Source: Candidatus Tectimicrobiota bacterium (GTDB lineage Bacteria; JACPSX01). From it: 5,019 nt of DNA. The position numbers and the translations under genes are program-made. Every line of letters begins with the position of its first letter. Position 1 is the stretch's first letter. Under the pieces are notes generated by a model. That model searched no databases. It was not told the DNA's origin and worked only from the letters and a program-made list of their open reading frames with translations. Below, one piece after another: positions 1 to 4,006 of this stretch. The DNA lies in NCBI GenBank assembly GCA_016193065.1, contig JACPSX010000130.1, positions 1 through 5,019 of the forward strand. The letters are read 5' to 3'.

Positions 1-1697
1 ACCCCGGAATCGAACCAGACATCGAGGATGTCCATCTCCTTGTAAAACGTCTGGCCGTCGCAGTATTGGCAATGCGTCCCCGGCAACAGGAGTTGGTCAG
101 CATCCTGCTCGAACCACACATCAGCCCCATGCTGCTCTACCAGAGCAGCCACACGTTCTGCCACCTCCTGGCTGGCTAAAGGCGCGTCGCAGCCCCGACA
201 ATAAAACACCGTGATCGGAACTCCCCAGGCCCGCTGCCGGGAGATACACCAGTCGGGGCGGGTGGCGATCATGTTGGAGATCCGCTCCTCTCCCCACGCG
301 GGGATCCACTGCACCCGCTTGATTTCCTCCAGGGAGTTACGGCGCAGGTCGTCTTTTTCCATCGAAATGAACCATTGGGAAGTAGCGCGATAGATAACCG
401 GATTCTTGCAGCGCCAGCAATGGGGGTAAGAGTGGGTAATCGTCTCTTCCAGCAGCAGGTGTCCCGAATCTTTCAGTCTCTTGATGATAACGGGGTTGGC
501 ATCCCACACGCTCTTGCCCTCCAGCCAGCTCCCCGCTTCCCGGGTAAAGCACCCACGGTCATCGACAGGGCTATAAACCGCCAGATCGTACTTGTCCGCG
601 ATCTCGTAGTCTTCCTGGCCATGCCCGGGGGCCGTGTGAACGCAGCCGGTTCCCTGGTCCAACGTCACATGAGTTCCAAGGACCAATGAAGAAAGCCGGT
701 GGCCAGACGAATTTACGTTCCCTCGCGCCCTCAGCCGATTAGAAGGCGAAGGAAGAAGGGGGTGATCCCCACTCACAAACGGATGCTGCGTTTCGATCCC
801 CTCCAGAACCGTCCCTTTCCAGGTTCCGAGAATTTCATAATCCCCAAACCCGAGCTTGCGGGCCACCTCGGCAACAAGCTCCTTGGCAATCAGGTACACT
901 TCCTCCCCTACAGCCACGGCGCTGTACTCGAAGTCCGGGTGGAGGCAGATGGCTAGATTTGCAGGGAGGGTCCAAGGGGTCGTGGTCCAGATGATGACAG
1001 AAACCTTTTTCCCCTTTAGCTCCGGCAGTCTTGCATTGACGGCGGAATCTTCCACGGGGAATTTCACGTAAATGGAGGGGGAGGTGTGCTCGTCGTACTC
1101 AACTTCGGCTTCGGCCAGTGCTGTCACGCATTCCGGGCACCAGTGCACGGGCTTCTTGCCGCGGTAAACGCTCCCCTTCCCGATGAATTTCCCGAGCTCC
1201 CGCACGATCGTGGCTTCGTATCCGTAGCTCATGGTGAGATAAGGATGATCCCAGTCGGCAAACCCGCCGAGGCGCTTGAACTCCTCGCGCTGGATGTCGA
1301 TATAGGAATTGGCGAACTCCCGGCAGTGCTGGCGGATCTCTTTCTTGCTCAGCTCCCGCTTCCGGGGCCCCAGCTCCTGGTCGACCTGGTGCTCGATCGG
1401 CAACCCATGGCAATCCCAGCCGGGCACAAAGACCGCGTCCTGCCCTTCCATGGTTTTCACTTTCACCACAAAGTCTTTGAGAATCTTGTTAAGGGCCGTG
1501 CCGATGTGAATATGGCCGTTGGCGTACGGGGGGCCGTCGTGGAGAATGTACAGCGGGCGGCCCCGGGCCGCGCGCCGGATTCTTCCGTAAACATCCATCT
1601 CGTCCCAGCGCCGGAGCAGTTCAGGCTCCTTTTTGACCAGATTGGCTTTCATGGGGAAGTCGGTGCGGGGAAGATTCAAGGTATCCTTCACGTCCAT
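1..1697 (-). CDS. ileS: Isoleucyl-tRNA synthetase, N-terminal 565 codons (3' end outside window)
   Basis: Cytoplasmic class I aminoacyl-tRNA synthetase that charges tRNA-Ile with isoleucine using ATP and hydrolyses Val-tRNA-Ile in its CP1 editing domain. The frame is open from the ATG at 1697 to the left edge. Visible landmarks are the [13 protein letters not shown] signature (HIGH region, about residues 53-66), [10 protein letters not shown], the editing-site TTTPWTLP (T238-T240), [11 protein letters not shown] (H354, D363, matching E. coli H333 and D342), [20 protein letters not shown], paired cysteines (YCRGC, HCQYC) of a probable zinc-binding insert, and DVWFDSG at the edge. The KMSKS loop and C-terminal zinc domain would lie beyond the window. 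The start is supported by the purine-rich RBS 5 nt upstream. Two oddities: residues 309-332 are an extra 24-codon segment in the editing domain, and the HIGH motif reads HIGT. Family assignment is certain; activity of this allele is not. Confidence 0.97.
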
Positions 1698-2990: not shown

Positions 2991-4006
2991 GCAGCCGTTC
3001 CAGGCATGCGGTGCTCCGGTTGAACCCCGCGAACCCCAGGTCGCGAGTACCCTTGCCTGCGGGGGTGAGACGGAACTTGATGAGATATGAAATCAGCACC
3101 TGCCCGCAAACGCTTCCAATTCTTCCACTGGTACCATTGATCCGGATACTGCAGGATGTATTTTTCCAAAAGGTTCAGGAGACCGCAAGTAACCGAACCC
3201 GGGGAGAATTCAGATGCTTCCAGAGGTTCAACGCTGAGATGGTATCCTCCGAGGCCGTTTCTGATCAAAAAAATTCCCAGGACCTGAGCTCCAGTTTTTC
3301 TCTGCCAGCGATCGATGCTGCGGTCTATGTACTGCAAGAGATCGATGCTGCGGTCTATGTAAACAGGAACACCGAACATACTCCCACAGCCGGCTGTGGA
3401 GGGATTAATACTCTCCACCTCATCACACTCGGTAATAACGATCTTGTTCCGCTTCAAGATCTTCGCCAGTCGGAAGAACGAGGTTCCCTCGTCGGCGTCG
3501 ACCGGGGTAATCCCAACCCTGGCCGCTCTCTCTTCAAGGCTTCGTCTTAGAGAAGGGGTTTTGAACTTGACCACCATGTAAGGATGGTAGTGCTGTAAAG
3601 CCAGCACCGCGGGCAGAAATTCGACTCCACCAAAGTGGGCTGTAACCAAGAGAACCCCTCTTCCTTGCTTCAATGCACGGTCGATATGCTCCATGCCCGA
3701 AATGCGAACCTTTTTCCGGAGGTAGGTGACGACCCCCTCGTACTCGTGATAGGCCTGGAAGAGTTTTTCGGCATAATGATGAAAGATGCCTCGAAAGGTG
3801 GCCCGGATGATCCGTTCCAGGTCGCCGGCTGTCTTCCGGCCTTGCAAAACTTCTAGGATGTTTTCCACGACGAGGCGGCGCTCCCCCGGCCGCAGCCAGA
3901 AATAGATTTTCCCCAATAGTAGGAGATACGTGTAAGACAACAGGGGGGAAAGGAAAGAAAAAATAAAGCGGTTTAGAGGGAGCTGAAAGAACTCACTGAT
4001 GCCCAT
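2987..4006 (-). CDS. Lysophospholipid / lipid A type acyltransferase (HtrB/LpxL-like LPLAT family)
   Basis: Predicted inner-membrane acyltransferase that moves a fatty acyl chain from acyl-ACP or acyl-CoA onto a lipid A precursor or related lipid. From the ATG at 4006 it is 339 residues. A hydrophobic N-terminal segment (about residues 13-38) should anchor it. The catalytic HX4E motif is HFGGVE (H124, E129), followed by a conserved block at FGVP (211-214), TGAQV (238-242) and the family's C-terminal WYQWKNWK (291-298). Residues 216-225 and 226-235 are a tandem duplication of YIDRSID plus three residues. About 40 residues beyond WKRL are Arg/Pro/Gly-rich and not typical. The frame extends to a TTG at 4051, but ATG 4006 has GGAGG at 5 nt spacing, so I prefer it. 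The stop overlaps the next start as ATGA. Family call is firm; acceptor lipid is unknown and the duplication may impair the fold. Confidence 0.9.
   Translation of the reverse strand: MGISEFFQLPLNRFIFSFLSPLLSYTYLLLLGKIYFWLRPGERRLVVENILEVLQGRKTAGDLERIIRATFRGIFHHYAEKLFQAYHEYEGVVTYLRKKVRISGMEHIDRALKQGRGVLLVTAHFGGVEFLPAVLALQHYHPYMVVKFKTPSLRRSLEERAARVGITPVDADEGTSFFRLAKILKRNKIVITECDEVESINPSTAGCGSMFGVPVYIDRSIDLLQYIDRSIDRWQRKTGAQVLGIFLIRNGLGGYHLSVEPLEASEFSPGSVTCGLLNLLEKYILQYPDQWYQWKNWKRLRAGADFISHQVPSHPRRQGYSRPGVRGVQPEHRMPGTAA
3302..3361 (-). repeat. 30-bp in-frame tandem duplication inside the acyltransferase gene
   Basis: Two adjacent 30-nt units, 3361-3332 and 3331-3302 on the minus strand, match at 28 of 30 positions. 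The first 21 bases (TACATAGACC onward) are identical and the two differences are near the end. They encode YIDRSIDLLQ then YIDRSIDRWQ. With one copy, the distance from FGVP to TGA matches the usual LPLAT spacing, so the first copy is the likely addition. Confidence 0.93.

Follow-up and report, generated by a model that had tools for sequence, protein, structure and literature searches.

Residues Thr241, Thr246, His333, and Asp342 are the editing residues of E. coli isoleucyl-tRNA synthetase (IleRS) (PMC9023258). Rickettsia palindromic elements are in-frame inserts of about 150 bp in protein genes (review PMC10969869). Here we analyze an ileS gene whose editing domain, CP1, carries 24 extra codons that the initial annotation had likened to such elements. 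Our analysis suggests a different origin, probably a stretch of non-coding DNA.

The ileS gene and its upstream region

The window, the whole stretch of DNA analyzed here, corresponds to contig C50 (5019 bases) in a 2.9-Mb draft assembly that comprises 294 contigs and is 86% complete. The genome itself (G000) was screened by searches and through a sample of stretches (~154 kb). The N-terminal 565 residues of IleRS are encoded on the minus strand (3–1697), where the gene is truncated by the contig end. Despite comprising the N-terminal part alone, the protein scores 665.8 bits against TIGR00392 (cut-off 621.4) and matches PDB 8c9e with an E value of 2.9e-165. No second ileS is found in the draft genome. 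The remaining matches are much weaker and, from their scores, would represent synthetases of the ValRS/LeuRS type.

Directly upstream of the ileS start, a terminator-like hairpin followed by UUUUUU is located at 1712–1755 on the minus strand. There is hardly any promoter space between the hairpin and the start. The hairpin may act as an attenuator in the leader or, alternatively, terminate the gene upstream; it matches no Rfam family.

Position and length of the insert

The insert comprises residues 309–332 of IleRS and occupies positions 702–773 on the minus strand, as delimited by alignment, spacing counts, and codon usage. These coordinates and the length of 72 nt, or 24 in-frame codons, are exactly those annotated initially. 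The insert is in phase 0, contains no stop codon, and is an exact multiple of three. In an alignment with 31 relatives (52–66% identity), every relative has a 24-column gap at residues 309–332, and the solved IleRS structures show a gap at this site too. An alignment with close relatives had been proposed as a check; the relatives compared here lack the segment. Once the gap is placed, the residues flanking the insert pair one to one with those of the relatives.

Excision of codons 309–332 had been said to leave normal spacing, and two observations agree with this. First, when the insert is removed, the joined residues match HPFLERDSLLILG of the relative L032 column by column. Second, among ~106 relatives the HP-to-GTG spacing is 18 residues in 101, 19 in three, and 31 in one (L005); L029, which has no HP anchor, is outside these counts. 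The spacing in the window's IleRS is 42 residues, that is 18 + 24, counted from HPFV; the insert itself contains HPLL.

The exception, the IleRS of the distant relative L005 (genome G026), carries a 13-residue Lys/Asp-rich insert at the identical turn, with a sequence unrelated to that of the window's insert. This independent insert indicates that the turn tolerates insertions. The relatives compared share no rank below domain with the window's genome, and the insert is known from one genome. Among the genomes examined, the alignments mark it as specific to the window's lineage.

Structural context in the editing domain

As annotated, the insert lies in CP1, with one half of the editing site on either side. 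Upstream is the motif TTTPWT (residues 238–243; 969–986, minus strand), and downstream is the motif HTAPGHG (residues 354–360; 618–638, minus strand). In the alignment, T238, T243, H354, and D363 (the last at 609–611, minus strand) are the equivalents of E. coli T241, T246, H333, and D342, and all are present. The E. coli numbering minus the window's numbering is +3 at T241/T246 and −21 at H333/D342, a difference of exactly 24.

The structure was predicted by AlphaFold2 run on the alignment. The whole model resembles IleRS structures, with 8c9f as the best match. The insert is modelled as a low-confidence loop, with pLDDT <50 at residues 313–325. On its 5′ side is the β strand of residues 302–309, which ends in HPFV (771–794, minus strand), and on its 3′ side is the β strand of residues 333–340, HRLSSLVL (678–701, minus strand). 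The insert is thus predicted to be disordered and to form the turn of a CP1 β-hairpin. Since the insert occupies the hairpin turn, the loop is presumably solvent-exposed. A model of CP1 had been suggested as a way to see whether the insert forms a surface loop, and a loop of this type is what the prediction gives.

Codon usage and origin of the insert

The insert is rich in Pro, Ser, and Arg, as described, and its codon usage differs from that of the gene. GC3 is 0.50 in the insert versus 0.735 ± 0.10 in the remainder of the gene. The codon score of the insert is −0.286 per codon, whereas the other 24-codon stretches of the gene average +0.262 and none falls below −0.202; the Pro/Ser/Arg-rich composition accounts for part of this odd score. 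An origin from coding DNA is not supported, the score being negative in all six frames. A template within the same contig was also considered and rejected, the longest shared words being 9 bases. Codon usage unlike that of the gene points to young non-coding DNA that is open in frame by chance.

We therefore consider it probable that the insert stems from one event, recent in evolutionary terms, in which 72 nt of non-coding DNA entered ileS in frame. The insert lies exactly at the turn of the CP1 β-hairpin. Neither the frame nor the residues on either side are disturbed, and the editing site retains its residues for catalysis and specificity. In the proposed course, the DNA would have become a 24-residue loop that is functionally near neutral, and the enzyme would still edit.

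Comparison with palindromic repeats

The main alternative is that a palindromic repeat, of the Rickettsia-palindromic-element or the REP/MITE type, was inserted in frame, and that the insert is a decayed or last surviving copy. We regard this as rather unlikely. The insert is C/T-rich and then G-rich, and the imperfect hairpin described previously does exist: at 719–754 on the minus strand, a 13-bp stem with one bulge encloses a 9-nt loop. However, the hairpin is no stronger than those of shuffled sequences (z = −1.09, matched by 25 of 200 shuffles). With its flanks included, z is −0.43 as RNA and −0.06 as DNA. For comparison, the CP1 repeat loop of the relative L053, used as a control, gives z = −2.52. 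Folding against shuffles thus detects no inverted-repeat structure beyond chance in the insert, and no known RNA family matches it.

A search of the genome for further copies had also been proposed. We searched with the DNA at E values up to 10, with a 21-base pattern allowing three mismatches, and with the peptide. At every sensitivity tried, a second copy is absent from the 2.9-Mb draft (86% complete): apart from the window, all matches are chance ones of 14–19 bases. In plasmids and phages, there are chance matches only (best E values, 3–8). No word of at least five bases is common to both junction regions, indicating no target-site duplication. As a positive control, the near-perfect palindrome of the L053 CP1 loop (TPSHPSPLEGEGKGG) returns 34 matches in its own genome and 55 in the L064 genome, numbers that overcount sites, many rows being both strands of one palindrome. 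These matches reach 96% identity over 48 bases. The return of many copies indicates that the search is able to detect repeat families of this kind.

The window's genome does contain at least two dispersed palindromic families, which is in favor of a repeat origin. The R1 element, ~136 bases long, has roughly 40 matches, whereas the R2 palindrome, ~47 bases long, has some 25 sites; loci of these families include L135:3901–4070 and L135:5160–5225. We considered the insert as a member of either family. In pairwise gapped alignment with R2, it outscores 99.6% of shuffles (p 0.004, uncorrected), which is suggestive but no more than a lead, since 14 comparisons were made. The nhmmer searches with the R1 and R2 profile HMMs give no match to the insert. 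Some R1/R2 copies fall inside long frames of the genome. One of these frames has a Pfam match, which is far from the repeat, so no in-frame copy within a conserved gene of this genome is established. At one contig end of the same genome (C1; L118:1–323), regular repeats with a period of ~73 bases resemble a CRISPR array.

The description of the insert as a dispersed palindromic element is therefore not borne out: it is a single copy, with a hairpin that is not significant, no flanking duplication, and no R1/R2 profile match. Of the features tested, the one that it shares with elements of the RPE, REP, and MITE types is in-frame placement in a host gene. Because several defining tests failed, we do not class the insert as a repeat element, and as judged by these searches it is outside any repeat family detectable in the draft genome.

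Palindromic loops in the IleRS of relatives

The IleRS CP1 loops of some relatives do carry such repeats, a further point in favor of the repeat origin. In L053 (3640–3711), the loop just upstream of TTTPWT encodes TPSHPSPLEGEGKGG, and its DNA is strongly palindromic and dispersed in the L053 and L064 genomes. The L053 case places a repeat in frame within an essential proofreading domain of a bacterium other than Rickettsia. In L064 (3778–3828), the insert NPVRNSSGVND is located between TPWT and HPF and contains a palindromic motif. In the L053 genome this motif, CCCCGTTAGAAATTCC, has 20 sites when one mismatch is allowed; the L064 genome has two. In addition, L055 (3784–3861) has the insert QESSVRGLPSNASIGGQGS between TPWT and HPF.

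These loops raise the idea that uncultured bacteria outside Rickettsia repeatedly gain small in-frame repeats in the editing-domain loops of IleRS, with the window's insert decayed and those of L053 and L064 younger. We consider this idea unlikely. If true, it would show how a proofreading domain acquires loops.

Assembly fault and selected function as unlikely alternatives

The insert could also be an artefact of assembly or binning, in which bases of foreign origin or from a wrong join ended up in the draft metagenome contig; we consider this very unlikely. An assembly fault is disfavored because the length of the insert is exactly divisible by three, no stop interrupts it, and the flanks, in an essential gene, are complete to the residue; in addition, a source for the insert is absent elsewhere in the assembly. 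A fault is still conceivable because the draft is in 294 contigs and because two other indel-like anomalies lie on this contig, a disrupted gene of the enolase superfamily and a tandem duplication of 30 bases. The former is a muconate-cycloisomerase/dipeptide-epimerase-like gene at 1838–2990, which is in two frames and, from PDB homologues, has apparently lost ~34 nt near 2595; it is either a pseudogene or an assembly fault. The latter, at 3302–3361, is an in-frame duplication of 30 nt (IDRSIDLLQY/IDRSIDRWQR) in a Lip_A_acyltrans-type acyltransferase gene.

A loop kept by selection to tune tRNA binding or proofreading, to which the location between the editing-site halves and the two Arg residues in the LRARG of the insert might point, is most improbable given that no conservation is demonstrable, the composition is non-coding-like, the loop is predicted to be disordered, and the catalytic residues are unchanged.

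Discussion

As an insertion of non-coding DNA that looks young and is probably harmless, the insert is a modest curiosity. It is nevertheless a clean case, in which a length-invariant turn of an essential proofreading enzyme gains 24 residues at once, and the window's IleRS offers a defined, testable comparison with the loop-less form. As the relatives illustrate, dispersed repeats of small size can become part of the coding frame of CP1, which bears on the origin of protein loops.

Like Rickettsia palindromic elements (PMC10969869), the window's insert is short, keeps the frame, and sits where a housekeeping protein tolerates additions. It differs in being half as long (72 versus about 150 bp), in having neither dispersed copies nor a significant palindrome, and in encoding a peptide that is not conserved elsewhere. 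The IleRS of L053 and L064, from Deltaproteobacteria and Proteobacteria MAGs, likewise have CP1 loops with added or altered residues, in their case containing palindromic sequence. The loops are different ones, and the L053 sequence is demonstrably a dispersed repeat. The L005 IleRS shares the turn, but not the length or the sequence of the insert. The closest known system is bacterial type 1 IleRS (TIGR00392; Priestia megaterium IleRS1, 8c9e; S. aureus, 1ffy), with which the window's IleRS shares the fold, the motifs, and the editing residues T/T/H/D. The spacing is alike on either side of the insert, and the difference is 24 extra residues in one β turn of CP1.
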